From contig NZ_KB891326.1 in assembly GCF_000373385.1 (NCBI RefSeq), forward strand, positions 85,309 through 149,308: a stretch of 64,000 nt of DNA, written 5' to 3'. Position numbers and translations under genes: made by a program. Positions 27,999-62,915 of the stretch are shown here, one piece after another. How positions within the stretch are numbered: the stretch's first letter is position 1; each line of letters starts with the position of its first letter. The DNA is from Thiobacillus thioparus DSM 505. GTDB lineage: Bacteria; Pseudomonadota; Gammaproteobacteria; Burkholderiales; Thiobacillaceae. A model generated the notes under the pieces. It saw only the letters and a program-made list of their open reading frames with translations. It made no database searches and was not told the origin of the DNA.

Positions 27999-29195
27999 TC
28001 AGCCGGGTTTGCCGTCGACGCGCGGGCGCAGCAGCATCGGGGCATACACTGCCACGAACAGGCCGAATGCGGCGATCCACACCAGTCCGGCCACGGCCAT
28101 GCCTTGCGTATACGCCGCAGGAAAAAGCAGCGGCAGCGCGACGCGGGCCAGCGCGGCGAGGTTGATCGCCACGAAGGCCAGCGTCATGATCGGTAGTGGT
28201 TCCAACTGACGGCCGGTGTGGCCGAGCGAGACGCGCGCCATCATGCCCAGGGTCAGGGCGCCGATGGCGCCGGCGGTGAAGGCATGCAGCGCGCTGCCGG
28301 CGGCGGCGTTCCATCCGGCCGCCGACAGTGCCAGCAGCGCGAAGCCGAGCGGTATCCACGCATAGCCCAGATGGAGGATCCACAGCAGCGGCACCGACCA
28401 GAATTTTGGGGTATACCAGCCCGCCAGGCGGATCGCGTGGGCCGCCGCCGCTACAGCGGCAAGCAGGGCCGTAGCGGGCGAGGCCGGCGCGACCAGCGCG
28501 GCAATCAATGCCAGCAGGGTGGCGGCCGGTACCAGCCATTCGATGATTTTCCAGCGGCGCGCGCGGGTGTGCAGCTTGTTGTCGGTGAAGCTGGGGATCA
28601 CCCGTCCGCCCATCGCCGTGATCATCATGATCACCACATAGACACCCAGATGCAGCCCCGGTCGTGCCGTGCCGGACGTCCAGTGCAGGGCGTCGGCGTG
28701 TACCAGCGCATTGGCTGCAGCCAGCGCCAGCAGCAGGATGGGGAAGGGATAGTTGTGCAGCTGCTTCGCCTGCAGGATCGGCCACGCCAGTACGATTGCC
28801 AGCGCTGGCAGGAACGCCAGGTCGACCAGCGCGACCAGCCCGGCCGGCAGGCCCGGAATCAGGAAGCCCAGGCGCCCCGCCAGCCACAACAGGAACAGCG
28901 CGGCCAGCGGGCGGCCCGACGGGGTGCGGAGGCCGGTCCAGTTCTGTGCCGCGGTCAGCAGAAAACCGGCAATCACCGATACGGCGAAGCCGAACACCAT
29001 TTCATGACCGTGCCACACCAGCGGGAGCAATTCGCCCGGAATGATGACGCCGCCCAGAACAAGCAACCACAGCGCCATCATCAATACGGCATAGAGGCCG
29101 GCCGCCAGGAAGAACGGCCGGAATCCGAGCGCAAAGGGCGCCCAGCCGGTGGGCGGCGGACGCTTCGCTCGATCGTCGATGGGCAGCATGGCCAT
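27999..29195 (-). CDS. nnrS: NnrS family heme/copper membrane protein
   Basis: A 398-residue, roughly twelve-helix membrane protein. The conserved WHGHEMVFGF segment (residues 61-70) supplies the histidines thought to bind heme and copper in this family. NnrS proteins accompany denitrification genes and relieve nitrosative stress. Here the gene lies 62 bases after the DsrC-like gene, in the reverse-strand block downstream of narGHJI. That position and the family role suggest protection against NO or related species made during nitrate respiration. No strong ribosome-binding site precedes the ATG. Confidence 0.92.
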   Translation of the reverse strand: MAMLPIDDRAKRPPPTGWAPFALGFRPFFLAAGLYAVLMMALWLLVLGGVIIPGELLPLVWHGHEMVFGFAVSVIAGFLLTAAQNWTGLRTPSGRPLAALFLLWLAGRLGFLIPGLPAGLVALVDLAFLPALAIVLAWPILQAKQLHNYPFPILLLALAAANALVHADALHWTSGTARPGLHLGVYVVIMMITAMGGRVIPSFTDNKLHTRARRWKIIEWLVPAATLLALIAALVAPASPATALLAAVAAAAHAIRLAGWYTPKFWSVPLLWILHLGYAWIPLGFALLALSAAGWNAAAGSALHAFTAGAIGALTLGMMARVSLGHTGRQLEPLPIMTLAFVAINLAALARVALPLLFPAAYTQGMAVAGLVWIAAFGLFVAVYAPMLLRPRVDGKPG

Positions 29196-29257: not shown

Positions 29258-29578
29258 TCAGCCCGTACTCCAGGCTCGCGGACGTTTCATGCCGGCGATC
29301 TTGCAGGCCTGCTTCACATAGCCATAGGGAAACAGTTCGAACAGCTTCTTCTGCGCATCCCTGCCCATGCGTTCGGCCAGATGCTTGATGACGAAGCGGG
29401 CATCGGCTGCGATCTGGTGCTCGTCATAGTATTCGCGCATGAAACGGATGGCATCCCAATGGTCGTCGGTGAGCTGGATGTTCTCGCCTTCGGCCAGGAC
29501 CTGGGCTATTTCCTCATTCCAGTCTCCCGGTTCGATCAGATAACCTTCCGCGTCGCGTTCGGGCAAATCGATGGCCAT
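29258..29578 (-). CDS. DsrC/TusE-like sulfur-relay protein with a single tail cysteine
   Basis: A 106-residue protein of the DsrC/TusE/DsvC family: EGYLIEPGDWNEEIA at the start, the helical middle DHWDAIRFMREYY and the C-terminal arm. DsrC proper ends with two redox cysteines (CysB in ACK-x-AG and a penultimate CysA); here Cys92 in QACKIAG is kept but the tail reads KRPRAWSTG, so CysA is absent. It thus cannot form the intra-arm disulfide or trisulfide of DsrC, and resembles the regulatory-type (RspA-like) members. A strong ribosome-binding site (AGGAGA) precedes the ATG. It lies between an SQR-like gene and nnrS downstream of narGHJI. Confidence 0.85.
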   Translation of the reverse strand: MAIDLPERDAEGYLIEPGDWNEEIAQVLAEGENIQLTDDHWDAIRFMREYYDEHQIAADARFVIKHLAERMGRDAQKKLFELFPYGYVKQACKIAGMKRPRAWSTG

Positions 29579-29678: not shown

Positions 29679-31229
29679 TCATGTCCCTCCGCCGTGGAAT
29701 TCGACACCCGGCTGGCGTTCCGGCAGGGCTTCCACCAGCAGTTCGCGCCGTGCCAGCGCCATGGCCTCGACGCCCGGTTCGTTCAGATACGATTTGGCGT
29801 CGGACACCGCGGCAGCCAGCAGGTCGGCTGCCAGTGCGTCGGGATCGCGACCGACCGATTTGGCCAGCGCCCTGAGCTCGATGCAGGGATCCTGCGGCAG
29901 CCGGATTTCGAGAGGCTTGCCGCCACTGGCCGCCATCAGCGGCGGGTGCGGTTCGCCGCTTTTTCCGGCCAGCACTCGGCTCATCACGCCGGCGATGTGC
30001 GAAGCGACGGAAGGAGTGTGGCCAGCAGGCTGCAGACGGATCCGGTTGACGAAGTACTTCTCGAAATCGACCTTGGCCTGATGCACCCAGCGCCCCTGGC
30101 GCATCCAGTTGATGTCGCGCAAGGGCACCTGGGGCTCCGACAGGTAGGCTGCGCCGGTGTTGCCCATGTCGCTCAACCACTTGGCGCGTTGCGGGACATA
30201 GCTCGTCAGCGGCGCATCGCCGAGTTGGGCCAGGATGTTGTGCACCGCGATCTCGCCGGCTTTCTGGATCGCGTATACCGAGTCGGGGGAGCCCACCGGC
30301 ACCGGGGTGTGGGTTACTGCCGGTTGCGCCACGCAGGCGCCCAGGGCGAATACGTTGGGGTAGTCCGGATTGCGCAGGTATTCATCCACGATCACGAGTC
30401 CATGCCTGTCGACCAGGCCGGCGGCACTGCGTACGCCGGGCACGCCGCCGAAAGCCGGCCAGTAGACCGAATAGGCGTAGGGCAGGGTATGGGTCTGCTT
30501 GGTGCCACCGGCGGCATTGAGTTCGGCGATGTGGAGGACGTCCGCGTCGACGCGCGTCGTGATGGCGTTGCAGATCACACTGATCTTGGTGTCGACCAGC
30601 GCGGCAGTCACCGCGCCCCGGCTGGCGCCTTCGCCGCCGAGGCCGAGATGACCGGGCCAGGGTTCGGGCGTGACGAGGGTGATCGGCACCCGCTCGCGGA
30701 TGTTGCGGCGCTTGAGGTCTGCATCGATCAGGAAGGCATATTCGTAGAGCGGTCCCAACACGCTGGCGCCCGGCGCCGCGCCAATCACGATCGGTCCGGG
30801 ATGGCGCACGAATTCGCGGTAGGCTGCCAGCGCGCGCTCGGCCTGGTCGATGTGGATCACCGAATACGTATGGTCGGCGAGACCGGGAATCGCGTCGGTC
30901 ATGCCGCTTGCGCCTGTGGCGATCAGCAGCGCATCGTAATACAGCACGTCGCCGTTCTCCAGGTCGACCTGGATGACGTCGGGGTGGATGCGCTCGACGG
31001 CGCTGTGGATGAACTTGATGCCGCGCGATTCCAGATAGGGCGCGATGGGGAAGGCGATATCGGCGCGTTCGCGCCAGCCCATGGCAATCCAGGGATTGGA
31101 CGGCACGAAGTGAAAATAGGGCTTGTCCGACACCACCGTCACTTCGTCGTGCGGACCCAGTTGGGCTTTCAGGGCATAGGCCGCGGTCACGCCCGCGATG
31201 CCGGCTCCCAGGATGACAACATGCGTCAT
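29679..31229 (-). CDS. Sulfide:quinone oxidoreductase-like flavoprotein lacking catalytic cysteines
   Basis: A 516-residue FAD protein of the SQR family: the N-terminal Rossmann motif VILGAGIAGVTAAY, the FVPSNPWIAMGW segment and the second dinucleotide region are clear. Against the Acidithiobacillus SQR as I recall it, all three catalytic cysteines are replaced: Ile125 (for C128), Val157 in GASVLG (for C160) and Trp351 before SDMGNTGAA (for C356). Sulfide oxidation by the known mechanism is therefore unlikely. A C-terminal extension beyond about residue 430 contains EIRLPQDPCIEL and SVGRDPDALAADLL, a ribbon-helix-helix-like pattern. AAGGAGA precedes the ATG, 33 bases after narI, so it belongs to the nar operon. 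It may pass electrons to or from quinone; its substrate is unknown. Confidence 0.85.
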   Translation of the reverse strand: MTHVVILGAGIAGVTAAYALKAQLGPHDEVTVVSDKPYFHFVPSNPWIAMGWRERADIAFPIAPYLESRGIKFIHSAVERIHPDVIQVDLENGDVLYYDALLIATGASGMTDAIPGLADHTYSVIHIDQAERALAAYREFVRHPGPIVIGAAPGASVLGPLYEYAFLIDADLKRRNIRERVPITLVTPEPWPGHLGLGGEGASRGAVTAALVDTKISVICNAITTRVDADVLHIAELNAAGGTKQTHTLPYAYSVYWPAFGGVPGVRSAAGLVDRHGLVIVDEYLRNPDYPNVFALGACVAQPAVTHTPVPVGSPDSVYAIQKAGEIAVHNILAQLGDAPLTSYVPQRAKWLSDMGNTGAAYLSEPQVPLRDINWMRQGRWVHQAKVDFEKYFVNRIRLQPAGHTPSVASHIAGVMSRVLAGKSGEPHPPLMAASGGKPLEIRLPQDPCIELRALAKSVGRDPDALAADLLAAAVSDAKSYLNEPGVEAMALARRELLVEALPERQPGVEFHGGGT

Positions 31230-31262: not shown

Positions 31263-31946
31263 TCAGCCACGCGGGCGCACCAGTTGCCAGGCGCGCACGG
31301 CGTAGGTCGTCGCGGCAAAGCCGCTCCACACATGCACCAGACGCGTGAACGGGAAGACGAGGAAGATCGTCATGCCGAGGAAAAGGTGCGTCTTGAATAC
31401 CCAGCCAGCGCTGGCCAGCAGTTCGACCGCATCGCCACGGAAGGTGACGATGCGCTGCGCCCATTCGGCCAGCCGGATCATCATGCTGCCGTCCAGATGC
31501 TGGGCCGACAGCGGGATAGTCGCCAACCCGAGCAGCAGTTGCAGCCACAGCAGCAGCAGGACCAGGATGTCGCTGAACTTCGAGGTGGCGCGGATGCGCG
31601 GCTCGGTCAGGCGGCGGTGCAGCAGCAGGCTGAGGCCGGCGAAGGCCAGCACACCTGCCGTGCCGCCCGACACCATGGCCAGCACCTGCTTGGCGCCTGC
31701 GCTGATGAAAGGCTCGTAGACGAAATGCGGCGTCAGCATGCCGAAGAAGTGGCCGAAAAACAGGAACAGCACGCCGACGTGGAACAGGTTGCTGCCCAGC
31801 CGCAGCTGGCCGCGCCTGAGCAGCTGCGAGGAATCGCTCTTCCATGTGTACTGTTCGCGGTCGAAGCGGATCAGGCTGCCTAGCAGGAATACCGTCAGGG
31901 CGATGTAGGGATAGATTCCAAACAGGAAGGTTTGCGAGTAGGACAT
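31263..31946 (-). CDS. narI: Respiratory nitrate reductase gamma subunit, cytochrome b
   Basis: A 227-residue, five-helix membrane subunit that oxidises quinol and passes electrons to NarH through two b hemes. The four heme histidines fall at His56, His66, His187 and His205, the same numbers I recall for E. coli NarI. The start at 31946 has CAGGAGAAT directly upstream; the frame extends further but overlaps narJ. It is the fourth gene of narGHJI, 17 bases after narJ. Confidence 0.95.
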   Translation of the reverse strand: MSYSQTFLFGIYPYIALTVFLLGSLIRFDREQYTWKSDSSQLLRRGQLRLGSNLFHVGVLFLFFGHFFGMLTPHFVYEPFISAGAKQVLAMVSGGTAGVLAFAGLSLLLHRRLTEPRIRATSKFSDILVLLLLWLQLLLGLATIPLSAQHLDGSMMIRLAEWAQRIVTFRGDAVELLASAGWVFKTHLFLGMTIFLVFPFTRLVHVWSGFAATTYAVRAWQLVRPRG

Positions 31947-31963
31947 TTCAGATTCTCCTGTGA

Positions 31964-32620
31964 TTAGATCGCTGCCTGCCGGCGCGAGGCCGGCATCTGC
32001 ACCACGGATACCTGCGGACCGGGTTTGAGCAGCGGTTCGACGCCGTCGATCGACGGGCCGAACAATTCCATCGCCTCGTCCATGTCGCGCACCGGCGGCT
32101 CGGCCAGTTTCTGCGCGGCCACCGGCGACAGCGCTTCCAGCACCTGGAAGGCGGTGGCGTAGGGGCTGCCGTTGGCATCGAGCTTGCGGCCAATGGTGGC
32201 GATCACGTGCACGGCGTCGCCGAGCAGTTCGATGGCTTCCTCTGCCGACAACAGCGACAGGAATTCGAGGAACAGCGGCACGTAATCCGGTAGTTCGGCG
32301 GCGCTGGCGTCGAAGTCGTGCTTCCAGTACTCCTCCAGCAGATCGATCATCGCCGAGCCGCGGTCGCGCGATTCGCCGTGGATGTGCTCGAACAAGTGCA
32401 GCGAATGCGAGGGATTGCGATCGAAAGTGGCGACATAGTTTTCCTGCAGCGCGATCAGTTTCGACTCGTGCAGCAGATCGAACAGTGGCGCGAGTCGGGC
32501 TGGTGCACCGCCATTGAAGTCGGCTTCGTCCTCCAGCGCGGCGTGCATCTCGGGTAGCGCCGCCAGCCACTCGGATTCCGGGTAGCACAGCAGCAAGGAC
32601 AGGACTTTGAAGGTTTTCAT
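31964..32620 (-). CDS. narJ: Nitrate reductase assembly chaperone NarJ
   Basis: A 218-residue cytoplasmic chaperone needed for molybdenum-cofactor insertion into NarG and assembly of the NarGHI complex; it is not part of the final enzyme. The TorD/DmsD-like helical pattern is visible, with LSLLLCYPESEWLAAL at the start, ENYVATFDRNPSHSLHLFEH in the middle and ELPDYVPLFLEFLSLL after it. It starts 12 bases after narH and is followed 17 bases later by narI, in the usual GHJI order. Confidence 0.95.
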   Translation of the reverse strand: MKTFKVLSLLLCYPESEWLAALPEMHAALEDEADFNGGAPARLAPLFDLLHESKLIALQENYVATFDRNPSHSLHLFEHIHGESRDRGSAMIDLLEEYWKHDFDASAAELPDYVPLFLEFLSLLSAEEAIELLGDAVHVIATIGRKLDANGSPYATAFQVLEALSPVAAQKLAEPPVRDMDEAMELFGPSIDGVEPLLKPGPQVSVVQMPASRRQAAI

Positions 32621-32632
32621 CGTGCGGGCTCC

Positions 32633-34180
<1,548 letters not shown>

Positions 34181-34297: not shown

Positions 34298-37200
34298 TCA
34301 GCGCTCGACCAGCGGACCTTCCATCCAGTCCACCTTCTTCATCTTGCGCACGATCACGTATTCGTCACGGTTGGAACCCACCGTGCCGTAGTAGTTGAAA
34401 CCGTAGGCCAGCTGCGCGTAGCCGCCGATCATGTGGGTCGGCTTGGTAATGGTGCGCGTCACCGAGTTGTGGATGCCGCCGCGGAATCCGCTCACCTCTG
34501 CACCTGGCACGTTGACGATTTTTTCCTGTGCGTGGTACATCAGGCACATGCCCTTGGGCACCCGCTGGCTGACCACGACGCGCGCGGTCAGCGTGCCGTT
34601 GACGTTGAACACCTCGACCCAGTCGTTGTCGACCAGGCCCGCCTGCTTCGCCTCGATCTCCGACACCCAGACGTGCGGGCCGCCGCGCGACAGCGTGAGC
34701 ATGCGCAGGTTGTCGGTGTAGGTGCTGTGGATGCCCCATTTCTGGTGCGGGGTGATCCAGTTGAGCACCAGTTCGTGGTGGCCGTTCGGCTTCTTGCCCA
34801 GCAGCGGCGCGATCGTCTTGGTGTCGACCGGCGGCTTGTACACGCACAGGCCCTCGCCGAAATCCAGCATCCACTGATGGTCCTGGTAGAACTGCTGGCG
34901 GCCGGTGAGGGTGCGCCAGGGGATCAACTCGTGCACGTTGGTGAAGCAGGCGTTGTACGACACGTGCTCCGATTCCAGACCCGACCAGGTCGGCGAGGAG
35001 ATGATCTTCCTCGGCTGCACCTGGATGTCGCGGAAACGGATCTTGTCGTCCTCGCGCGAACTGGCCAGATGCGTGTGGTCGCGGCCGGTGATCTTGGACA
35101 GCGCCTCCCACGCCTTCACCGCCACATGGCCATTGGTTTCCGGCGCCAGCATCAGGACCACTTCGCAGGCATCGATGGCCGATTCGATCCTAGGCATCCC
35201 CTTGCTGATGCCTTCCTCGGTAACGGTGTAGTTCAGTTCGGCGAGTTGCTGCACTTCGACTTCGGTATTCCAGCTGATGCCCTTGCCGCCGTTGCCGACC
35301 TTGGTCATCAGCGGGCCCAGCGCGGTGAATTTCTTGTAGGTGTCGCCGTAATCGCGCGTCACCACCGTCATCGTCGGCATGGTCTTGCCGGGAATCGGAT
35401 CGACCTCGCCATTCTTCCAGTCGCGCACGCCCAGGCTCTGCCCTAGTTCGGACGGCGTGTCGTGCATCAGCGGCGTCAATACCAGGTCCTTCTGCGTGCC
35501 CAGATGCGTGGCGGCGAGCTCGGAGAACTTCTTCGCGATGGTCTTGTAGATTTCCCAGTCCGATTTCGATTCCCACAGCGGCTGCACCGCTTCGGAGAGC
35601 GGGTGGATGAAGGGATGCATGTCCGAAGTGTTGAGGTCGTCCTTCTCGTACCAGGTGGCCGACGGCAGCACGATGTCGGAATACAGGCAGGTGGTCGACA
35701 TGCGGAAGTCGAGCGTCACCAGCAGGTCCAGCTTGCCTTCTGCGCCCTTGTCGTGCCACACGACTTCCTTCGGCTTGGCCTCGCCCAGCTCGCCGAGATC
35801 CGGTCCCAGCACCGCGTTCTGCGTGCCGAGCAGGTACTTGAGGAAATATTCGTGGCCCTTGCCCGAGGAACCCAGCAAGTTGGAGCGCCACACGAACAGG
35901 TTGCGCGGGAAGTTCTTCGGGTTGTCCGGATCCTCGCAGGAGAACTTGAGCGCGCCGCTCTTGATCTGCTCGACCGCATACTTGACCGGGTCGATGCCGG
36001 CGGCGTCAGCCGCCCGCGTGATGTCCAGTGGGTTGGTTTCCAGCTGCGGTGCGGACGGCAGCCAGCCCATGCGCTCGGCGCGCACGTTGAAATCGATCAG
36101 CCGGTAATCGCCCAGATTCTTGTTCGCGGTGGGCGACAGGATCTCCGACGCGGCCAGCTTCTCGTGGCGCCACTGGCTGGTGTGGGCATAGAAGAATGAG
36201 GTGGAGTTCATCTGCCGCGGCGGACGATGCCAGTCGAGACCGAACGCCAGCGGCGCCCAGCCGGTCTGCGGCCGCAGCTTTTCCTGCCCGACGTAGTGCG
36301 CCCAGCCGCCGCCCGACTGGCCGATGCAGCCGCACATCATGAGGAGGTTCATGATGCCGCGGTAGATCATGTCGTTGTGGTACCAATGGTTGAGCGCGGC
36401 GCCAAGGATGACCATGGACTTGCCGAGGGTCTTGTCGGCGTTGTCGGCGAATTCGCGCGCCACCGTGATGATGTCGGCACGCGGCACCCCGCAGTGTTTC
36501 TCGGCCCAGGCCGGGGTGTAGGGCACGTCGTCGTCGTAGCTCTCGGGCACGTTCGGCCCGCCGAGGCCGCGGTCGACGCCGTAATTGGCCAGCGTCAGGT
36601 CATAGACGGTGGCCACATACACGTCCTTGCCGCCGACGCTGATGAGCTTGACCGGCATATTGCGGACGAGCAGGTCGTTGTGGTCGTCGCCGCCGAAATA
36701 GGGCATGGCGACTTCGACAATCTCGTCGTGGTTGCTCAGCAGGCTCAACTGCGGCTTCACCTCTTTATTGGAATAGCCGTCGCGCATTTCCAGGTTCCAC
36801 GCACCGGACTGGCCCCAACGGAAACCGATCGATCCGTTGGGCGCGACCAGGTAGCCGGTGTTCTCGTCGTACACCACGGTCTTCCATTCGGGATTGTTGT
36901 CCTGTCCCATGTGGCCGGTGAGATCGGAGGCGCGCAGGTAGCGGTCGGCGATCAGCTTGTCTTCGTGCGCCTTCAGCATGACCAGCATCGGCATGTCGTT
37001 GTACTGACGGCAGTAGGTATCGAAATATTGGCTCTTGCTCTTGTTGTGGAATTCGCTGAGGATGACGTGGCCCATCGCCAGCGCGAGCGCGGCATCGGTG
37101 CCCTGCCGGGGCGCCAGCCAGATGTCGCCGAACTTCACCATCTCGCCGAAGTCGCTTGATACCGCCACCGTCTTGGTGCCCTTGTAGCGCACCTCGGTGT

Positions 37201-37999
37201 AGAAGTGGGCGTCGGGGGTGCGCGTCTGCGGCACGTTGGAGCCCCACACCATCAGATAGGTCGAGTTGTACCAGTCGGCCGATTCAGGCACGTCGGTCTG
37301 CTCGCCCCATACCTGCGGGCTCGACGGCGGCAGGTCGCAGTACCAGTCGTAGAACGAGCCGCACACGCCGCCGATCAGCGACATGTAGCGGCTGCCGGCG
37401 GCGTAGCTCACCATCGACATGGCGGGAATCGGCGAGAACCCGTAGATGCGGTCGGGGCCGAATTCCTTGATGGTGAAGACGTTGGATGCGGCGATCATTT
37501 CCGTCACCTCGTCCCACTTGGCGCGCACGAAGCCGCCCTGGCCGCGCACCGACTTGTAGCGCCGGGCCTTCTCGGGGTCCTGGCTGATCGATTTCCAGGC
37601 TGCAACCGGGTCCATGGTCTCGCGCGCCTCGCGCCACATTTCCATCAGGCGGCCGCGGATCAGCGGGTATTTCACGCGCTGCGCCGAATACACGTACCAG
37701 GAGTAGCTGGCACCGCGCGGACAGCCGCGCGGCTCGTGGTTGGGCAGGTCGGGGCGGGTGCGCGGATAGTCGGTCTGCTGGATTTCCCAAGTGATGAGAC
37801 CATTCTTGACGAAGATCTTCCAGCTGCACGAACCGGTACAGTTCACCCCGTGGGTGGAACGGACCACCTTGTCCTGCTGCCAGCGGTTGCGGTAGGCGTT
37901 CTCCCAGCTGCGGTCTTCGTTGCTGACGACGCCATGGCCATTGGAATAACTGGCGATGTTCTTCTTGAAGAAGGTCAATCGGTCGAGAAAGTGACTCAT
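34298..37999 (-). CDS. narG: Respiratory nitrate reductase alpha subunit, molybdenum catalytic subunit
   Basis: Reduces nitrate to nitrite at a bis-MGD molybdenum site on the cytoplasmic face. The 1233-residue length matches NarG. The FS0 [4Fe-4S] ligands are His50, Cys54, Cys58 and Cys93, with the His ligand typical of NarG. The molybdenum-ligand Asp lies in ESADWYNS, and the WGSNVPQTRTPDAHF segment follows. No twin-arginine export signal is present, which fits the Nar (not Nap) type. It follows narK2 and heads narGHJI. Confidence 0.97.
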   Translation of the reverse strand: MSHFLDRLTFFKKNIASYSNGHGVVSNEDRSWENAYRNRWQQDKVVRSTHGVNCTGSCSWKIFVKNGLITWEIQQTDYPRTRPDLPNHEPRGCPRGASYSWYVYSAQRVKYPLIRGRLMEMWREARETMDPVAAWKSISQDPEKARRYKSVRGQGGFVRAKWDEVTEMIAASNVFTIKEFGPDRIYGFSPIPAMSMVSYAAGSRYMSLIGGVCGSFYDWYCDLPPSSPQVWGEQTDVPESADWYNSTYLMVWGSNVPQTRTPDAHFYTEVRYKGTKTVAVSSDFGEMVKFGDIWLAPRQGTDAALALAMGHVILSEFHNKSKSQYFDTYCRQYNDMPMLVMLKAHEDKLIADRYLRASDLTGHMGQDNNPEWKTVVYDENTGYLVAPNGSIGFRWGQSGAWNLEMRDGYSNKEVKPQLSLLSNHDEIVEVAMPYFGGDDHNDLLVRNMPVKLISVGGKDVYVATVYDLTLANYGVDRGLGGPNVPESYDDDVPYTPAWAEKHCGVPRADIITVAREFADNADKTLGKSMVILGAALNHWYHNDMIYRGIMNLLMMCGCIGQSGGGWAHYVGQEKLRPQTGWAPLAFGLDWHRPPRQMNSTSFFYAHTSQWRHEKLAASEILSPTANKNLGDYRLIDFNVRAERMGWLPSAPQLETNPLDITRAADAAGIDPVKYAVEQIKSGALKFSCEDPDNPKNFPRNLFVWRSNLLGSSGKGHEYFLKYLLGTQNAVLGPDLGELGEAKPKEVVWHDKGAEGKLDLLVTLDFRMSTTCLYSDIVLPSATWYEKDDLNTSDMHPFIHPLSEAVQPLWESKSDWEIYKTIAKKFSELAATHLGTQKDLVLTPLMHDTPSELGQSLGVRDWKNGEVDPIPGKTMPTMTVVTRDYGDTYKKFTALGPLMTKVGNGGKGISWNTEVEVQQLAELNYTVTEEGISKGMPRIESAIDACEVVLMLAPETNGHVAVKAWEALSKITGRDHTHLASSREDDKIRFRDIQVQPRKIISSPTWSGLESEHVSYNACFTNVHELIPWRTLTGRQQFYQDHQWMLDFGEGLCVYKPPVDTKTIAPLLGKKPNGHHELVLNWITPHQKWGIHSTYTDNLRMLTLSRGGPHVWVSEIEAKQAGLVDNDWVEVFNVNGTLTARVVVSQRVPKGMCLMYHAQEKIVNVPGAEVSGFRGGIHNSVTRTITKPTHMIGGYAQLAYGFNYYGTVGSNRDEYVIVRKMKKVDWMEGPLVER

Positions 38000-38098: not shown

Positions 38099-39709
38099 TT
38101 ACGGATTCTTGACGTAGGCGTTCTTGCGCAGATAAAACCACCAGTTCAACAGCAGGCACACGGCGTAGAAGATGGCGAAGCCGTACATGGCGTTTTGCGG
38201 GGTTCCCGCCTTGATCTGGTTCTTGATCACCTCTGGGGCAATAAATGAACCATAGGCTGCAACGGCGGAAGTCCAACCCAGAACGGGCCCGGCCTGCACG
38301 CGGTCGAAGATCACGCCGACGGTGCGGAAGGTGGAGCCGTTGCCCATGCCGGTGGCGGCGAACAGCACCACGAACACCACCAGGAACTGGGTGAAGTAGA
38401 TCTCGGGCGTGGCCGACTGATAGGCCTGCATCAGAACCCAGCCGGCGTAGACCGAGGCGGCGACCATCACCGCCGAGATGATCTGGGTGACGATGGAGCC
38501 GCCGACCTTGTCGGAAATCCAGCCTCCCACCGGGCGGATCAGCGCGCCGACGAAGGGGCCGATCCATGCGTATTGCAGGGCGGAGGGGGCATGCGGGTTT
38601 TTCGCATGCGTCCAGACGCCGGTGGCGGCATCCAGGACATGGCTGTTGCCGAAGATGACCGTGATCGACAGCGGCAGCGCCATCGAGAAGCCGATGAACG
38701 AACCGAAGGTGACGAGGTAGAGCGCCGTCATCGACCAGGTGTGCTTGTTGTTGAAGATGGCGAACTGCTTGGCGATGTTCTCCTTCATCGGACCGAAGGC
38801 GGCCAGCTTCAGGATCACCAGCGTGACGACGATGATGAGCGGCATCGCCACCCACATGTTGAGCATCCCCAGCCCGGTGGGGGCGGGCAGATAGAGGTAG
38901 AGGCCGCCGATGGCGGGGACGAATACCAGGGTATAGAGCCAGGTGACCTTGAAGAAGGCGGAGACGGCGTTGCCCGCATCCGGCGACACTGGCAGCAGAT
39001 TGTTCATGCCGAACCAGGCGATGATCCCGAGCGGCACCAGCGACAGCACCCAGGTGAGGCCGGCGTTCTGGATGTAGGTGGGGGTGCCGGCGAGGATCTT
39101 GCCGAAGATCCAGCCGCTGTCCTTGACCAGTGTCATCGGCTCGCCGCCCAGTGCGCCGAACACGCTGACCGTCATCACCAGCGGGATGAGGATCTGCATG
39201 GTAGTGACACCGAAATTCCCTAGGCCTGCATTGATCCCCAGTGCCGTGCCCTGCAGACGCTTGGGAAAGAAGGTGCTGATATTGGACATCGAACTGGCGA
39301 AGTTGCCGCCGCCGACGCCCGACCACAGCGCCATCAACTGGAAGCTCCACAACGGCCAGTCGGGATGCTGCAGGACGATGCCGGTGCCAATCGCCGGCGC
39401 CAGCAGCATGGACGTGGTAAGGAAGATGACGTTGCGCCCGCCGGCCAGCCGGATGAAGAAGGAAGACGGGATGCGCATCGTCGCACCGGCCAGCCCCGAG
39501 ATCGCGGTCAGCGTGAACAGCTCGTCCTGGCTGAACGGGAAGCCCAGATTGGACATCTGCACGGTGATGATGCCCCACATCAGCCACACGGCGAATCCGC
39601 ACAGGAGGGCCGGCACCGAGATCCACAGGTTGCGGTAGGCAATCTTCCTGCCGGTCGTTTCCCAGAAAGTGGGATCTTCCGGATTCCATTCTTTGATATT
39701 GGTGGACAT
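38099..39709 (-). CDS. narK2: NarK-type nitrate/nitrite transporter, long form
   Basis: A 536-residue major-facilitator protein with twelve predicted helices and a 30-residue hydrophilic N-terminus (MSTNIKEWNPEDPTFW). Nitrate-signature glycine-rich segments occur in helices 5 and 11 (for example GNFGVTTMQ and FAATGMGNGSTF). By family it is the NarK2-like type, often a nitrate/nitrite exchanger needed because Nar uses nitrate inside the cell. It starts 27 bases after narK1 and precedes narG, so transport and reduction are co-expressed. Confidence 0.9.
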   Translation of the reverse strand: MSTNIKEWNPEDPTFWETTGRKIAYRNLWISVPALLCGFAVWLMWGIITVQMSNLGFPFSQDELFTLTAISGLAGATMRIPSSFFIRLAGGRNVIFLTTSMLLAPAIGTGIVLQHPDWPLWSFQLMALWSGVGGGNFASSMSNISTFFPKRLQGTALGINAGLGNFGVTTMQILIPLVMTVSVFGALGGEPMTLVKDSGWIFGKILAGTPTYIQNAGLTWVLSLVPLGIIAWFGMNNLLPVSPDAGNAVSAFFKVTWLYTLVFVPAIGGLYLYLPAPTGLGMLNMWVAMPLIIVVTLVILKLAAFGPMKENIAKQFAIFNNKHTWSMTALYLVTFGSFIGFSMALPLSITVIFGNSHVLDAATGVWTHAKNPHAPSALQYAWIGPFVGALIRPVGGWISDKVGGSIVTQIISAVMVAASVYAGWVLMQAYQSATPEIYFTQFLVVFVVLFAATGMGNGSTFRTVGVIFDRVQAGPVLGWTSAVAAYGSFIAPEVIKNQIKAGTPQNAMYGFAIFYAVCLLLNWWFYLRKNAYVKNP

Positions 39710-39736: not shown

Positions 39737-40990
39737 TTACTCGAGAGGGTCGGCGCCTGTAGTTCTGATCATCGGCAGCTTGCGAACCTCGGTCAGGTAC
39801 ATCCAGATCAGCGATACCCAGGTGATGCCGTACATCAGCATGAAGATGCCGCTGTTGATGCCGGTGAGATCGACGATGGCGCCGAACAGGATGGGCAGGA
39901 CGAAGCCGCCGAGGCCGCCCATCAGCCCGACGATGCCCGAAATGACGCCGATGTTGTCGGGGTATTCGTCCGAGATGTACTTGAATACCGAGGCCTTGCC
40001 GAACGCCCAGCACAGGCCAAGCACGAACAGCAGCGCAGTGAATACCCAGACGTTGAGGCCGATATGCAGCGCGAATTCACCCTTGGTGGTCTGGATCACC
40101 ATGTCGGTCTGCGGATAGGACAGCAGGAACAGGCAGATCCACGACACCCACATCACCCACCAGGTGAGCCGGTGCGCGCCGACCTTGTCGGAAATCCAAC
40201 CGCCCACCGCGCGCATTACGCCGCCCGGCAGCGAAAAGCAGGCTGCCATCAATGCCGCGGTCTTGATGGAGAAGCCGTACTCGGTGATGAAATACTTGGT
40301 CAGCCAGAGCGACAGGGCCACATAGCCGCCGAACACGATCGAGTAATACTGGGAAAGCTTCCAGACGTTGGGATCCTTCAGTGCGGCGAGCTGTTGCCTG
40401 AACGTGATGTGGCTGGGCACGTGATGCGCCGTGTCGGTGTAGGTGAAGATCCAGAACAGGATGGCCATGAGCAGCATGGCCACCGCGTACACGTGCGGCA
40501 CGGCCTGCCAGCCGTAGGCGACGACCAGGGTGGGTGCGACGAACTTGGTCAGCGCCGCCCCCGAGTTGCCGGCGCCGAAGATGCCCATGGCAAACCCCTG
40601 CCGTTTTTTCGGGAACCAGCGGGCCACGTAGGCGATGCCGACCGAGAAGGACCCCCCGGCCACGCCGACGAACAGCGCCAGCAGCAGGAAATGCCAGTAT
40701 GCGGTGGCGTAGCCGATCAGCCAGATCGGCACGACGGTCGCCAGCATCAATACGAAAAAGACGATGCGGCCGCCCAGCTTGTCGGTCCACATGCCGAGCG
40801 GCAGCCGGATGAGCGAACCCGTCAGCACCGGCGTGGCCACCAGGATGCCGAACTCGGTCTCGTTCAGGCTCAGCATCTTCTTGATAGGGATGCCGATAAT
40901 GGCGAACATCATCCATACGGCGAAGCAGGCGGTGAACGCCAGCGTGCTCATCGTGAGCACGGAAATCTGCTTCTGTGTCTGGGTCGCCAT
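39737..40990 (-). CDS. narK1: NarK-type nitrate transporter, short form
   Basis: A 417-residue major-facilitator protein with twelve helices; the glycine-rich GIFGAGNSGAALTKF segment is the nitrate signature. By family it resembles NarK1, the proton-linked nitrate importer that fills the cell before exchange starts. In some bacteria the two types are fused into one protein; here they are adjacent separate genes. AAAGGATG precedes the ATG. It is the first gene of the nar operon, downstream of a region with NarL-type heptamers. Confidence 0.91.
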   Translation of the reverse strand: MATQTQKQISVLTMSTLAFTACFAVWMMFAIIGIPIKKMLSLNETEFGILVATPVLTGSLIRLPLGMWTDKLGGRIVFFVLMLATVVPIWLIGYATAYWHFLLLALFVGVAGGSFSVGIAYVARWFPKKRQGFAMGIFGAGNSGAALTKFVAPTLVVAYGWQAVPHVYAVAMLLMAILFWIFTYTDTAHHVPSHITFRQQLAALKDPNVWKLSQYYSIVFGGYVALSLWLTKYFITEYGFSIKTAALMAACFSLPGGVMRAVGGWISDKVGAHRLTWWVMWVSWICLFLLSYPQTDMVIQTTKGEFALHIGLNVWVFTALLFVLGLCWAFGKASVFKYISDEYPDNIGVISGIVGLMGGLGGFVLPILFGAIVDLTGINSGIFMLMYGITWVSLIWMYLTEVRKLPMIRTTGADPLE

Positions 40991-49475: not shown

Positions 49476-51440
49476 TCAGGCTTCGACGAGCATGCGGCTG
49501 CGCATCTCCAGGTGCAGCGCATGGCAGAAATTGGTGCAGTAGCACCAATAGACGCCCGGCTTGTCGGCGACAAAGGTCACCGATTTGGTCTCCTGCGGGT
49601 TGACGATGAACTGGATGTTGTACTTCGGAATGGCGAAGCCGTGAGTCAGATCCTCGACCTTGTCGTGGTTGGTCAGGATGATCGTCACCTCGTCACCTTT
49701 CTTGACCTTGAATTCCCGCAGGCTGAAGGCCGGCGCCTGGCTGGTGAGCTTGATGGTCACCTTCTTGCCGTTGCGGAAGACGCCCGAGTCCTTGGGATCC
49801 TTCACCGCCAGCGGGAACTCGTCCATGTTGTACACCTGGCGCGTCTTGATGATGTCGCGGCGGACGATGATCGAGTCGTGCGGCTCCGAATACACCGAAT
49901 GGTCGGCCACCAGCTTCATCTTGTCGCCGCTGATGTCGATCAGCTGGGCCGTCTCGGCATGCAGTGGACCCACGGGCAGGAAGCGGTCCTTGGAGAACTT
50001 GTTGTCCGAAATGAAGTAGCGGCCATCCGATTCCTTGGTCTCGCCCATCGAGGTGAAGCCATGGCCGGGCTGGTAATGGACGTCGATGCGGTCAAGCACC
50101 ACCTTGGCCTGCTTGTCGCCCTTGAATGCCTTGATCGCCGCTTCCACGTTCCACTTCACGATCTGGCTGTCGAGGAACAGGGTGGTGTAGGCGTTTCCCT
50201 TATTGTCGAAGCCGGTGTGAAGCGGCCCAAGGCCGATCTCGGGTTCGCCGACCACTGCGTCGCGGGGATTGGCCAGGCCGCCATCGAACCACTTCAGTAC
50301 CAGGGCATGCTCGATGACCGAGGCGGTTGGCGAGAGTTTGCCCGAGCAGACGTAGTACTTGCCGTCGGGGCTGATGTTTACCCCATGGGGATTCTTCGGG
50401 ATCGGCACATAGCACGTCAGCGCGGTTTTTGGATCCTGGTTGGATTCCATCGTGCCATCCACCACGGGAACCTTGGAGCTGCCGATATAGCGCACCTTGC
50501 CCGCCTTCACAGCCTCTTCGATGCGGGCCACGTTGAAGAACAGGCAGGCATCCATCTCCTTGGCCATCATGTCTTCGTAATGGAGGCCTTTCTCCGTGTT
50601 GTACTGGTTGGTCGCCGCCAGCTTGCCGTCGTAGGAGGACGCCACCAGGTCACAGTTGCCGTCGATCAGCACCTGCCAGCGCATCTCCATGGAGTTGGAA
50701 TCGACGCAGCTGAAGATCGATTTGTACTTGCTGCTGTCGTCCAGATCCCGCCCGTCATTGGGTAGGGGTATCGCGAATTCGGCGCCGCAGAACACGCGGG
50801 TGGTGTGATTGACGCTGGAGTCGACCGGGTCACGCTTGTCGGGGAAGGTGCCATGAAAACCCTGGACATTCGGCAGTTCGATGATCTTGTCGCACTCCAT
50901 GGTGTCCATGCGGACGCGCGCCAGGCGACCATGGATCTTGTCGTTCACGAACATGTACTTGCCGTCGTAGACGCCGTCAGTGTAGGACTGGTGCAGGTGG
51001 TGGGTGTCGCCGGTGGTGTATCTGGGGGTGCCGTCCGCCTTGGTACCCAGGATCGCCTTGGATTCGTTGGTGACGCCCCAGCCAACCAGGGCATCCATGT
51101 TGAAGACCGGGATGCGCTTCAGTTCGCGGCCGGATGGAATGCCGTAGATGCGTACTTCGCCCGAATGGCCACCGCTGGAAAAAGAATAGTACTCATCGAG
51201 CTGGCCCGGCGGAACTTCGTATTTGCTGTAATCGACACTGCTGGCCTGGGCCGCGGGGGCACCCGCGCCGGCGCCTTTATCCGTCGCCGGCGCCGATTTC
51301 TTGTTGCATGCAGACAGGCCCAGCGAAAGCCCTGCGCCGGAAAGCCCGACCAGGGCGGCGGTGTTCATGAATTTTCGGCGGCCGAGATCGGGTTGGGTAT
51401 CGGATAGTTTGCTATCGTCCTGCGTATGGTCCTGTGTCAT
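49476..51440 (-). CDS. nosZ: Nitrous oxide reductase, clade I
   Basis: Reduces N2O to N2 in the periplasm using CuA and CuZ centres. The 654-residue precursor has a twin-arginine signal (GRRKFMNTAALVG, Arg21-Arg22), so it is of the Tat-exported clade I type. The first CuZ histidines lie in DTHHLHQSY and the CuA site is the C-terminal CTNFCHALHLEM (Cys635, Cys639, His643, Met646). The signal ends in a perfect lipobox LSAC (Cys45) followed by a Lys/Ala/Gly/Pro linker to about residue 68, which suggests a membrane-anchored lipoprotein, unlike the usual soluble NosZ. It is the first gene of the nos operon. Confidence 0.96.
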   Translation of the reverse strand: MTQDHTQDDSKLSDTQPDLGRRKFMNTAALVGLSGAGLSLGLSACNKKSAPATDKGAGAGAPAAQASSVDYSKYEVPPGQLDEYYSFSSGGHSGEVRIYGIPSGRELKRIPVFNMDALVGWGVTNESKAILGTKADGTPRYTTGDTHHLHQSYTDGVYDGKYMFVNDKIHGRLARVRMDTMECDKIIELPNVQGFHGTFPDKRDPVDSSVNHTTRVFCGAEFAIPLPNDGRDLDDSSKYKSIFSCVDSNSMEMRWQVLIDGNCDLVASSYDGKLAATNQYNTEKGLHYEDMMAKEMDACLFFNVARIEEAVKAGKVRYIGSSKVPVVDGTMESNQDPKTALTCYVPIPKNPHGVNISPDGKYYVCSGKLSPTASVIEHALVLKWFDGGLANPRDAVVGEPEIGLGPLHTGFDNKGNAYTTLFLDSQIVKWNVEAAIKAFKGDKQAKVVLDRIDVHYQPGHGFTSMGETKESDGRYFISDNKFSKDRFLPVGPLHAETAQLIDISGDKMKLVADHSVYSEPHDSIIVRRDIIKTRQVYNMDEFPLAVKDPKDSGVFRNGKKVTIKLTSQAPAFSLREFKVKKGDEVTIILTNHDKVEDLTHGFAIPKYNIQFIVNPQETKSVTFVADKPGVYWCYCTNFCHALHLEMRSRMLVEA

Positions 51441-51547
51441 GTCGTGGTGCTACCCATCTTGAAAATAATCGGCATTTCCATTCGGATTGGCGCTAGACAA
51501 TCCGGATCGTTCGAATCCGGCAGGCGGTCATCCCGACCACTTGCCGC

Positions 51548-54555: not shown

Positions 54556-55956
54556 TCAATGCGTCTGGCCAAGCTGCTCGCGCAGACTGTCCAGAACCGC
54601 CTGCTCGCCCCGCACGCTGAAGAACGCGCCTTCAGCGTCGGCACGCTCGGCCAGGACCTCGCAGCGCGCGAATATTTCCCCGCGCAGTTGCTGGGCCGAC
54701 CAGGGCAGGAAAAGCTCGGCCTCGACCAGGTCGCGCTGGAAAAAAGCAACGATCGCCTGGTGTAGTTTGGCGACATCGTCGGGACGGCGCGCGCTCATCA
54801 CGATGCAGCCGGGATACGCGGCACGCAGAGCGGTTTCGCGTTCGGCCTGTGCCGCCGTGTCGCCGACGTGGTCGATCTTGTTGAAAATCCGGATGCGCGG
54901 CACATCCTGCGCTTCGATCTCGTCCAGCACGTGCTCGGTGGTTTCGATCTGCCGTTCGAACCCGGGGTCGCTGGCGTCGATGACATGAAGCAGCAGCGAG
55001 GCATCCAGCGCTTCTTCGAGCGTGGACTTGAACGACGCGACCAGTCCGTGCGGCAGGTTCTTGATGAAACCAACTGTGTCGCTGACCAGCACGCGCGGGA
55101 CGCTCTCGGGGTACAGGGTGCGCACGGTGGTGTCGAGCGTGGCGAAGAGCTTGTTGGCGACCAGCACCTCGCTGCCGGTGAGTGCGCGCATCAGCGTGGA
55201 CTTGCCTGCATTGGTGTAGCCGACGAGCGCCACGCTGGCGAGCCCCTGGTGCGCTTGCCGCCGGGCACGCTGGGTCTTGCGGTCCGCATCCATCGCGGCG
55301 ATCTCCTTCTGCAGCTCGGCGATGCGGTCGCGGATCTTGCGCTTGTCCAGTTCGGTGTGCGACTCGCCGGCCCCGCGTCCGCCGACGCCGCTGCGTTGCC
55401 GCCCTTGTGGTCCCGCGAGCTTCGCCGCCTCGCGCAGACGCGGCGCCAGGTAACCCAGACGCGCGATTTCCACCTGCGCGCGCGCAGCGGGGGAACGTGC
55501 GTTGCGGTGGAAGATCTCGAGAATGACCATGGTGCGATCCATCACCTGGCAGCCGACTTCGTTTTCGAGGTGGCGCGCCTGCGACGGGGAAATCTCGTGG
55601 TCGACGAAGATGACGTCGATCGGGTCGGGCGAGACCGGCGCCGTGTCGTCCATTCCCTCGACAACCGTGTCGAGGCGATACAAGGGGTTCAGCGAACGAA
55701 CGCCGGGCTCGGTTTTGTCGTCCGGTTTGCCCTGAACAAAATGGTGGATCTCCCGCCGCTTGCCTACGCCCAGATAGGCCGTCGAGTCGAAGCCGGACCG
55801 TTTTTGCGTGAACGTGCGGGTAACAGTGAATCCCAGTGTCTTGGCCAGCTCGCGCAGTTCAGCCAGCGAGGCTTCAAATTCCATGTCGCTCACCCCTGGG
55901 AGCTGAACCGACGCCACGACGGCGTACTGAGGGGCTTCTTGGACTTCTTTTTGCAT
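54556..55956 (-). CDS. hflX: Ribosome-associated GTPase HflX
   Basis: A 466-residue cytoplasmic GTPase that rescues or splits stalled ribosomes, especially in stress. The N-terminal HflX domain (including the glycine-rich GPQGRQRSGVGGRGAGESHTE region cut across residues about 190-210) precedes the G domain with G1 GYTNAGKST, G3 DTVGFI and G4 NKID. A C-terminal extension of about 60 residues follows the G domain. It is a single gene between narL (convergent) and hypE; no link to denitrification is evident. Confidence 0.94.
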   Translation of the reverse strand: MQKEVQEAPQYAVVASVQLPGVSDMEFEASLAELRELAKTLGFTVTRTFTQKRSGFDSTAYLGVGKRREIHHFVQGKPDDKTEPGVRSLNPLYRLDTVVEGMDDTAPVSPDPIDVIFVDHEISPSQARHLENEVGCQVMDRTMVILEIFHRNARSPAARAQVEIARLGYLAPRLREAAKLAGPQGRQRSGVGGRGAGESHTELDKRKIRDRIAELQKEIAAMDADRKTQRARRQAHQGLASVALVGYTNAGKSTLMRALTGSEVLVANKLFATLDTTVRTLYPESVPRVLVSDTVGFIKNLPHGLVASFKSTLEEALDASLLLHVIDASDPGFERQIETTEHVLDEIEAQDVPRIRIFNKIDHVGDTAAQAERETALRAAYPGCIVMSARRPDDVAKLHQAIVAFFQRDLVEAELFLPWSAQQLRGEIFARCEVLAERADAEGAFFSVRGEQAVLDSLREQLGQTH

Positions 55957-56060
55957 GCGGCTTGGTTTCTGTGGGGTGAGCGAAGCCGGGTATTATCCGT
56001 CAATGCAATCGGCACAAGTGTTGAAACTGCATTTTGTCGTGAGTGTCGTTACACTGCGCT

Positions 56061-57065
56061 TCAGCAGATCCGTGGCAGCGGGTCGTCTTCCAGTTCGTCC
56101 AGTACGCGCCGGCCGCCAAGGCCGGTTTCCAGGATCACTCGTGTGCCGCCTGTTTCGACGCGGCCGATGATGCAGGCATCCCGCCCTTCCGGCAGGGCGT
56201 GCCAGCGGGCAAGTACGTCGTCGGCTGCGAAGGGGTCGACGATGGCGACGACCCGGCCTTCGCAGGCCAGGAAATACGGGTCGTAGCCCAACATTTCACA
56301 GACCGACACGACTTCCGGACGCAGCGGTACCGCGTTTTGGTCGAGCACCACGCTGTGGCCGCTGGCGCGCGCGATTTCGTGGGCCACCGTGGCGAGTCCG
56401 CCGCGCGTCGGGTCGCGCATGAACTTGAGATGGGGAAAGTCGCGCACCGCGCGCGTCAGCGGCAGCACCGAGGCCGAATCGGAACGCAGCTCGCCGGACA
56501 GGCCGAACTGCTCGCGTGCCAGCATCACCGCGATGCCGTGATCGCCGACCGGACCGGATACCAGCACCACGTCGTCCGGTGCGATGCGGTCCATCGCCAG
56601 CCGGGTGGATGCGCGCCGCACGCCGATGCCGGCGACGGAGAGATACAGGCCGCTGCCTTCGCCCCGGCGCACCACCTTGGTGTCGCCGGCCACGACGACA
56701 ACATGGTTCTGTCGCGCAGCCCGCGCAAAGCTGGAGATATAGCGATCGAGCGCACTGATTTCCAGTCCTTCCTCGATGAGTGCGGACACGGTGAAATAAA
56801 GCGGGTCGGCCCCGGCTACAGCCAGGTCGTTGACCACGCCATGCACGGCGAGCGAGCCGATGTCGCCGCCGGGAAATTCAAGCGGCTCGACAGTGAAGCC
56901 ATCGGTGGTGACCATGAGCTCGCCGTCCACGTGCGGTAGCGTGACGGCATCGGCGTCGGTGTCGAGCAGCGGGTTGCCGAGATGGCGGGCAAAGACGTCG
57001 GTGATGAGTTCGCGCATCAGGCGGCCGCCGTTGCCATGTGCGAGAAGGATGCGGGTGTCGTCCAT
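56061..57065 (-). CDS. hypE: Hydrogenase maturation protein HypE
   Basis: A 334-residue PurM/AIR-synthetase-like enzyme that dehydrates the carbamoyl group on its own C-terminal cysteine to cyanide for the NiFe active site. The chain ends in PRIC, supplying the essential terminal Cys. The N-terminal LLAHGNGGRLMREL segment and the central ATP-binding VVAGDTKVVRRGEG motif are typical. It is the last gene of the hypCABDFE transcript, 12 bases after hypF. Confidence 0.96.
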   Translation of the reverse strand: MDDTRILLAHGNGGRLMRELITDVFARHLGNPLLDTDADAVTLPHVDGELMVTTDGFTVEPLEFPGGDIGSLAVHGVVNDLAVAGADPLYFTVSALIEEGLEISALDRYISSFARAARQNHVVVVAGDTKVVRRGEGSGLYLSVAGIGVRRASTRLAMDRIAPDDVVLVSGPVGDHGIAVMLAREQFGLSGELRSDSASVLPLTRAVRDFPHLKFMRDPTRGGLATVAHEIARASGHSVVLDQNAVPLRPEVVSVCEMLGYDPYFLACEGRVVAIVDPFAADDVLARWHALPEGRDACIIGRVETGGTRVILETGLGGRRVLDELEDDPLPRIC

Positions 57066-57077
57066 GGAGAGTCTTTA

Positions 57078-59342: not shown

Positions 59343-60432
59343 CGACGGCTACGCGCACGCCGCCCGCCCACCAGATGCGGCAGGCGCCTTCGTCCGACAC
59401 CATGCAGGGGCCGACCGGATTGCGCGGGGTGCAGGCCTTGCCGTAGATGCGGCACTGGTTGGGGTAGATCTTGCCAAGTACCACCTGCGCGCAATCGCAG
59501 CCGGGTGGCATTTCGCCGGCGCGGCGGCGGCCGGGGTCGGTGTGGTCGGGAAACAGCAGGCGCGCGTCGTGTTGTGCAAAGGCAGGCCTCAGCGCGTAGC
59601 CGGAGTTTGGAATGATGCCGATGCCGCGCCAGTTGGCGTCGACGACCTCGAGTGTGTGATCGAGCAGGCGGCGGCCGGTCGGATTGCCGCCCGGGTGGGC
59701 GACTTCGCGATAGCAATTGTCGAGAAAGCGCTCGCCGGTTTTAAGCTGGCGCAGCACGGAATAAAACGAGGCGAGCAGTGACTCCGTGCCAAAGCCGGCC
59801 ACTGCGGCCGGAATCTCGTGCCGGTCGATGACGAAAGACCATTCTTCCGGCCCCATGACCGTGGAAACATGGCCGGGTGCGACCAGCGCGTCGAAGCCGG
59901 GGCTACCAGAATCAAGCAGCATCGCGACTGCCGGCCAAGTCAGGCGGCCGGACAACAGGATGCTGAGGTTGTCGGGAATCCCTTCGGCCAGCATGGCGGC
60001 TGTCGGTGCCGTGGTAGTTTCGAATCCGGCGGCGAAGAACACCACTGGGCGATCGGGATTGTCTTGCGCGATCCGGCGCGCATCGATGGGGCTGGCGATC
60101 GGACGGATATCGGCGCCGGCGGCCTGCGCCTCGGCCAGAGAGCGCACCTCGCCTTTTTTTACATTGACCGGCACCCGCAACATGTCGCCGAATGCAACCA
60201 GGATGACCTTGTCATGCAACGCCAGCCGGATCGCCTGGTAGACGTCTTCCTCCGGGCACACGCATACCGGACAGCCGGGGCCCGGCACCAGTTCGAGCCA
60301 CTTCGGCAGTGCGCCGCGCATGCCGGCGTGGGTGATCGAACGCTCGTGGCCGCCGCACACGTTCATGATCTTGATCGGGCGGTCGAATTCGAAGGCATGG
60401 ATCTTGTCCAGCCAGGCGCGGGCGTTGTCCAT
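59335..60432 (-). CDS. hypD: Hydrogenase maturation protein HypD
   Basis: A 365-residue iron-sulfur scaffold on which the Fe(CN)2CO unit is built together with HypC. Conserved motifs are MNVCGGHE, GPGCPVCVCPEED and the C-terminal cysteine group CDCAQVVLGKIYPNQC with later GKACTPRNPVGPC, which binds [4Fe-4S]. The ATG overlaps the hypB stop by one base (TGATG) and its own stop overlaps hypF. Confidence 0.96.
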   Translation of the reverse strand: MDNARAWLDKIHAFEFDRPIKIMNVCGGHERSITHAGMRGALPKWLELVPGPGCPVCVCPEEDVYQAIRLALHDKVILVAFGDMLRVPVNVKKGEVRSLAEAQAAGADIRPIASPIDARRIAQDNPDRPVVFFAAGFETTTAPTAAMLAEGIPDNLSILLSGRLTWPAVAMLLDSGSPGFDALVAPGHVSTVMGPEEWSFVIDRHEIPAAVAGFGTESLLASFYSVLRQLKTGERFLDNCYREVAHPGGNPTGRRLLDHTLEVVDANWRGIGIIPNSGYALRPAFAQHDARLLFPDHTDPGRRRAGEMPPGCDCAQVVLGKIYPNQCRIYGKACTPRNPVGPCMVSDEGACRIWWAGGVRVAVDA

Positions 60433-61238
60433 CAGGCCGTGGCGCGGTGATATTTCATGCCGTCGCTCTGAATGGCAGGGCGGCGCGATTGCCCGATGGC
60501 GACGCGCGCGCGTTGTGCCGCAAACTGTTCGCGCAACCAGGTCAGCCAGGCGTCCATACCCATGTCCTTGCGTGCCGACAGCCGCATTACCGGCGCCGGG
60601 TTGGCGAGGTTGCGCAGATGCGCCTCGGCCTTGTCCGGGTCGAAATCGTCGAGCACGGCCAGCAGGTCGGTCTTGGTCAGCAGCATGGCATCGGCGGCGC
60701 GGAACATCACCGGGTACTTGGCTGGCTTGTCGTCGCCTTCGGTGACCGAGAGCAGGGTGACGTTGAGATGCTGGCCGAGGTCGAAGCTGGCGGGACAGAC
60801 CAGATTGCCGACGTTCTCGATGAAGAGGATGTCGACGCCGTCGAGATTCATGTGATGCAGCGCATCGTGCACCAGGTGGGCATCGAGATGGCAGGCGGTG
60901 CCGGTGACGATCTGGTGTGCCTGCACGCCCTTGGCGCGGATGCGTTCGGCGTCGTTCTCGGTTTCCAGGTCGCCCTCGATCACGGCGCAGGTGAATTCGT
61001 TTTTCAGTGCGGTGAGCGTGGCCTCCAGCAGCGCGGTCTTGCCGGAGCCTGGCGACGACATCAGGTTGATCGCGAGGATGCCGTGCTGATCGAAATGCGT
61101 ACGGTTATGCCTGGCCTGGTCGTCGTTCTTTGCCAGCAGGTCCTTGAGCACGGAGACGGCGGTCGCGCCCTTGGAAACGGGCTTGAATGCGAGGTGCTTG
61201 TTGCCGGGAGTGAGGTTGCAGCCGCAGGTATCACACAT
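60432..61238 (-). CDS. hypB: Hydrogenase nickel-insertion GTPase HypB
   Basis: A 268-residue GTPase that with HypA inserts nickel into the hydrogenase large subunit. The N-terminal nickel site MCDTCGCN is present but there is no His-rich nickel-storage stretch after it. The G1 loop SSPGSGKT, the metal-binding CHLDAHLVHDAL segment and the NKxD-equivalent LLTKTDLL are intact. A C-terminal tail of about 30 residues extends past the usual end. It follows hypA by 17 bases. Confidence 0.95.
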   Translation of the reverse strand: MCDTCGCNLTPGNKHLAFKPVSKGATAVSVLKDLLAKNDDQARHNRTHFDQHGILAINLMSSPGSGKTALLEATLTALKNEFTCAVIEGDLETENDAERIRAKGVQAHQIVTGTACHLDAHLVHDALHHMNLDGVDILFIENVGNLVCPASFDLGQHLNVTLLSVTEGDDKPAKYPVMFRAADAMLLTKTDLLAVLDDFDPDKAEAHLRNLANPAPVMRLSARKDMGMDAWLTWLREQFAAQRARVAIGQSRRPAIQSDGMKYHRATA

Positions 61239-61255
61239 TTTTCAGAGGCCAGGAG

Positions 61256-62870: not shown

Positions 62871-62915
62871 GGTGTAGGAGAGTTCGGGAATGTTTCTTGT
62901 CAGGAGGCACGCATC

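Follow-up and report, generated by a model that had tools for sequence, protein, structure and literature searches.

A cysteine-less homologue of type I sulfide:quinone reductase encoded behind narI in Thiobacillus and its relatives

The nar operon of Thiobacillus thioparus DSM 505 contains, directly behind narI, a gene for a homologue of type I sulfide:quinone reductase (SQR) that has lost all three catalytic cysteines, evolves under purifying selection and ends in a domain absent from SQRs. We refer to this protein as SQRx and consider it, with a probability of about one half, to be a type I SQR paralogue that was re-employed, in a sulfide-dead form, as an accessory flavoprotein of NarGHI. 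Judged by its sequence, SQRx is a homologue of the type I enzymes, yet it must not be classified as an SQR: defining catalytic residues were tested for and are absent. In the open-licence papers, to which our literature search was confined and outside which an earlier description could be missed, we found neither a cysteine-less SQR nor one linked to nar.

Loss of the catalytic cysteines

SQRx is encoded on the minus strand at 29679-31229 of the window, i.e. the whole stretch of 64,000 nucleotides analysed here (contig NZ_KB891326.1, positions 85,309 to 149,308), and comprises 516 aa from an ATG start. It matches Pfam Pyr_redox_2, and its best solved relatives are entries of the A. ferrooxidans (Af) SQR (3kpk, phmmer E 7e-106, residues 1-399), with the Aquifex SQR 3hyv at E 5e-79. 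The first fold match of the predicted structure (mean pLDDT 79) is the Af enzyme with bound quinone, 3t31 (Foldseek E 5e-47), and both by sequence and in the tree SQRx groups with the type I SQRs. A residue-by-residue alignment places Af C128, C160 and C356 in gap-free blocks opposite Ile125 (codon 30855-30857), Val157 (30759-30761) and Trp351 (30177-30179; all minus strand), the paired blocks reading SICTVD/SVIHID, GASCFGP/GASVLGP and AVCFADMG/AKWLSDMG. The initial annotation, which had claimed a preserved SQR fold and the loss of all three cysteines at exactly these residues, is borne out on both points. The model has low confidence at residues 349-382, so that Trp351 cannot be placed in it.

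Cys220, Cys299 and Cys449 had been named as positions to which the catalytic cysteines might have been displaced, and the alignment shows that none of them is such a residue. Cys220 matches no catalytic position, SQRx proteins do not conserve Cys449, and Cys299, although present in all 44 SQRx rows of our alignment, is not a displaced catalytic cysteine because 74 of the 78 SQRs that possess all three cysteines have it too.

This alignment of 122 rows comprises 44 SQRx, a few of which are the same gene drawn from two collections, and 78 cysteine-bearing SQRs. At the catalytic sites the SQRx rows (49-100% identity) are free of cysteine in 44 of 44 cases and read I, L, V, M or T at the C128 position, V, I or M at the C160 position and invariably Trp at the C356 position; the comparison SQRs, at most 47% identical to the protein of the window, carry all three cysteines in 78 of 78 cases. 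Intermediates between the two forms are absent from the 122 aligned rows. The dN/dS of the SQRx gene of the window against 13 relatives is 0.07-0.21 and resembles the values obtained for narI and narJ with these relatives, one locus (L033) excepted. Because the cysteines are missing from every SQRx row, Trp351 is invariant and dN/dS is this low, SQRx is under purifying selection and the cysteine loss is due neither to chance nor to decay; a pseudogene or a sequencing error is rejected by the same dN/dS values and conservation.

Four matches were found in the genome of the window, SQRx and three SQRs (44-46% identity) with the full set of three cysteines; located elsewhere in the genome, these three can cover sulfide oxidation. 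By hand count, 35 of 56 genomes of the genus have an SQRx orthologue (at least 75% identity). A scan in which each bacterial or archaeal species was represented by a single genome yielded 38 loci of the cysteine-less form, among them those of Thiobacillus denitrificans RG, Betaproteobacteria bacterium SCN2 and Sulfuriferula multivorans TTN. The hosts are Thiobacillus, Hydrogenophilaceae, Sulfuriferula and one family outside the order, a more distant family (G271) having come from a class-wide search. In a phylogenetic tree, in which SQR types II-VI are only partly included, all SQRx form one clade (UFBoot 100, SH-aLRT 99) on a long stem. Long branches affect its deep placement, either beside type I SQR as a sister group or within it, and only the clade itself is firm. 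Two outgroup SQR-like proteins have, as judged by eye, cysteines at the apparent C160 and C356 positions, which makes a loss within SQRx the simpler reading. A second, short cysteine-less SQR paralogue, 59% identical, was observed in Thiobacillus sp. 63-78 (L117:8001-9191, the same locus as L032); it is devoid of the C-terminal domain and has no nar genes nearby.

Nar linkage, C-terminal domain and the DsrC-like neighbour

The genes on the minus strand of the window follow each other as a narK1-like nitrate/nitrite transporter gene (39737-40990, TIGR00886), a narK2-like one (38099-39709, TIGR00886), narG (34298-37999, TIGR01580, 2180 bits), narH (32633-34180, TIGR01660, 944 bits), narJ (31964-32620, TIGR00684), narI (31263-31964 as searched, with an approximate start codon; PF02665, 9e-77), SQRx, a gene of the DsrC/TusE family (29258-29578; PF04358, TIGR03342) and nnrS (27999-29195; PF05940, 6e-121). 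SQRx is co-directional with narGHJI, its ATG following the narI stop after 33 bases, and is probably expressed from the nar operon. Elsewhere in the window, inspection by eye revealed an ORF with a NosZ-like Tat signal sequence (49479-51449, minus strand) and apparent hydrogenase and hydrogenase maturation genes (54559-63992).

The linkage to nar extends over several families. Where the contig extends far enough, almost all full-length copies of SQRx have narI immediately upstream, with or without an intervening ppiC, the former arrangement being found in a Sulfuriferula-like branch. The genus contains two NarG lineages, scoring about 2180-2207 and about 1900 bits, and SQRx normally accompanies the first; in two cases (L033 of genome G011, and L112) it is attached to the second, divergent one, and SQRx is thus associated with two distinct nar operons. 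At L033 (G011 C1:1484783-1493091, with SQRx at 1491544-1493091) the module of SQRx, DsrC-like gene and nnrS follows nar genes of the divergent NarG lineage, an arrangement that looks as though the nar genes next to the module had been swapped. Among nearly complete genomes of the genus, SQRx presence scored by nar lineage amounts to 21/24 versus 1/6 (Fisher p 0.002), a hand-scored comparison that ignores relatedness and is indicative only. An exception is L231, where no nar genes were detected beside SQRx and the C-terminal tail is degenerate. In genome G036, SQRx has decayed to a fragment of its C-terminal domain (L223:6570-7046); the DsrC-like gene and nnrS remain there, and nar genes were not found upstream of the remnant.

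The initial annotation missed the C-terminal domain of SQRx, whose stand-alone homologues also occupy nar operons. All full-length SQRx end in about 80 residues that are absent from SQRs (residues 437-516 in the window, 29682-29921, minus strand), in most cases with the tail LPExQPGxEF. In three other genomes (G091, G542 and G501), narI-ppiC is followed by stand-alone homologues of about 107 aa, which amounts to gene-fusion evidence that this domain acts in the service of Nar; gene context and fusion are what tie it to this complex. These proteins (L077:11857-12177, L222:6746-7066 and L224:6619-6948) share the domain including its tail, here LPENQPGTxFVAGGT, and differ in having an N-terminal part of their own, with the motif EYSCDxxSSxVR, and in being unfused to a flavoprotein. 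More distant stand-alone copies (L225-L227) were seen with no nar genes nearby. The C-terminal domain of SQRx returned no Pfam, NCBIfam or fold match, nor did the one stand-alone protein tested match Pfam or NCBIfam. A ribbon-helix-helix DNA-binding domain, considered on account of the pattern IRLP...LRALA...DPDALAADLL, is not claimed, as no Pfam, NCBIfam or fold match was obtained and the domain is modelled as three helices without any strand. When the hydrophobic moment of these C-terminal helices was scanned, the result was not decisive on membrane anchoring.

DsrC has two redox cysteines at its C-terminus, and TusE has the penultimate one. The DsrC-like protein of the Thiobacillus nar operon possesses a single conserved cysteine, the upstream one (KQAC), and ends in RPRAWSTG without a penultimate cysteine, a replacement shared by the full-length copies of this type within Thiobacillus. 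The second nar lineage carries a cysteine-free variant, which is also what stands beside two SQRx genes (L109 and L112), and in the Sulfuriferula-like branch no DsrC-like gene was detected at the SQRx/nar locus. A redox partnership of SQRx with this neighbour, as suggested initially, is therefore not supported as a rule, and its absence or exchange among SQRx loci excludes an obligate partner. In the Thiobacillus nar operon two proteins of sulfur metabolism, both stripped of redox cysteines, adjoin each other, and this pairing is not general.

Residues around the flavin

Sulfide oxidation by SQR needs C160, C356, C128, H132 and H198 (PMC6335251). At the position of H132 (SQRx 129), which is His in 78 of 78 normal SQRs, SQRx has Gln, Asp or Glu, and at that of Af F161 Leu or Ile. 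Invariant in both SQRx and normal SQRs are F41, E163 (Af E166), H194 (Af H198), K386 (Af K391) and F389 (Af F394); Af Y323 is kept, and the FAD motifs G8xG10xxG13 and A104-T105-G106 are conserved. The quinone head group of SQR is lined by V355, F357 and F394, the first two flanking C356 (PMC9666304). In SQRx the V355 position is occupied by Lys, Arg or His (42 of 44 rows) and that of N353, at the channel entrance, by Arg (41 of 44); the F357 position is Leu in 43 of 44, likewise in all 78 comparison SQRs, and the F394 position is Phe throughout (44 of 44). SQRx resembles type I SQR (SqrA; 3kpk/3t31, 3hyv) in homology over residues 1-399, fold, FAD motifs and the residues equivalent to H198, E166, K391 and F394, and differs from it by the absence of C128, C160, C356 and H132, by Trp and Lys/Arg at the C356 and V355 positions, by the extra C-terminal domain and by its place in the nar operon.

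For NDH-2, a quinone reductase without the catalytic cysteines of SQR, Glu172-Lys379 has been proposed as a proton wire to the quinone, a proposal extended to SQR (PMC5299459). SQRx shares the superfamily fold (Foldseek 5kmp, E 2e-25) and may share the Glu and Lys relay; Gly379 and Lys386 are spaced by 7 residues as are Gly372 and Lys379 of NDH-2, while the equivalence of E163 and K386 to Glu172 and Lys379 is putative, our alignment being one of SQRx and SQRs. The sulfide side of SQRx is gone apart from H198, the putative proton relay kept and the quinone pocket modified. This pattern supports a quinone-linked flavoprotein and is not proof of one. The original proposal, a quinone-linked flavoprotein without sulfide chemistry and tied to nitrate respiration, stands with respect to the missing known sulfide chemistry and the tie to nar, and its quinone link is plausible only, given that E163, K386 and F389 are kept and V355 is replaced by Lys or Arg.

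Possible roles of SQRx

Given its conserved motifs, SQRx would retain FAD, and the conserved Glu163-Lys386 relay would probably allow both electrons and protons to pass between SQRx and the quinone pool. On the other face of the flavin the sulfide site appears dismantled by the replacement of C128, C160, C356, H132 and F161, and the invariant Trp351 would sit where Cys356 attacked sulfide, filling the donor side. Because the donor face would be filled in this way, the redox state of the flavin would most likely follow the quinone/quinol pool and be reported to the Nar complex, or stabilise it, and the C-terminal domain would probably tie SQRx to NarGHI or to its assembly. A donor might also enter by another route. 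In its fullest form, which we advance tentatively and at less than even odds, SQRx would be an accessory subunit of respiratory nitrate reductase that has not been described before. This flavoprotein of SQR fold, closed to sulfide, would sense the quinone pool or exchange electrons with it and would influence NarGHI via a nar-specific C-terminal domain.

Alternatively, SQRx might be a dehydrogenase that actively reduces quinone and so supplies NarGHI with electrons from a non-sulfide donor, which could be a protein, a nucleotide or a small organic compound. The invariant proton-wire residues E163 and K386 and the quinone-pocket residue F389, the position in an operon for a quinol oxidase and the presence of SQRx in many nar-bearing sulfur oxidisers agree with this, but the invariant Trp on the donor face at the Cys356 position does not, and no dehydrogenase partner subunit was seen near SQRx. 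Neither has an NADH motif been gained: unlike NDH-2, to which identity is about 20%, SQRx does not possess GxGxxGxE in the second dinucleotide domain, where the turn keeps the SQR form GAxxGASxLGPxYE. SQRs exclude NADH by a loop (PMC5299459), and the GHLGLG segment with H194, invariant as in SQR, may correspond to it. We regard an active dehydrogenase as doubtful.

It is less probable still that SQRx is a pseudo-enzyme which, without catalytic activity, helps to assemble Nar or to attach it to the membrane. Like PpiC and NarJ, SQRx is positioned around narI, among genes that include maturation factors, with ppiC separating narI from SQRx in the Sulfuriferula-like branch, and is co-inherited with nar; both of its substrate faces are remodelled, and its C-terminal domain occurs alone at the same operon position. 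Unlike those proteins, it is a flavoprotein derived from a respiratory enzyme and by homology no chaperone. The FAD motifs and the proton-wire and pocket residues are invariant down to 49% identity, which is beyond what a scaffold would be expected to need, and genomes with the other nar lineage are mostly without SQRx. That SQRx retains sulfur chemistry by means of the invariant Cys299 or of the DsrC-like protein, whose gene follows in Thiobacillus, is very improbable even though the named hosts are mostly sulfur oxidisers, as Cys299 is common to normal SQRs, the neighbour is missing in one branch and elsewhere without a penultimate or any cysteine, and H132 is also lost.

Should the accessory role of SQRx in NarGHI be true, it would represent a clear case of a sulfur-oxidising enzyme that lost its chemistry and was recruited to nitrate respiration, and this recruitment would have occurred in organisms whose sulfur oxidation is coupled to denitrification. 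SQRx also marks a gene that adjoins narI, ends in a conserved domain of no known family and is amenable to genetics in a tractable species; knockout methods are established for T. denitrificans ATCC 25259 (PMC3753534). As a natural cysteine-free type I SQR, SQRx offers a means of separating the residues for sulfide from those for quinone.
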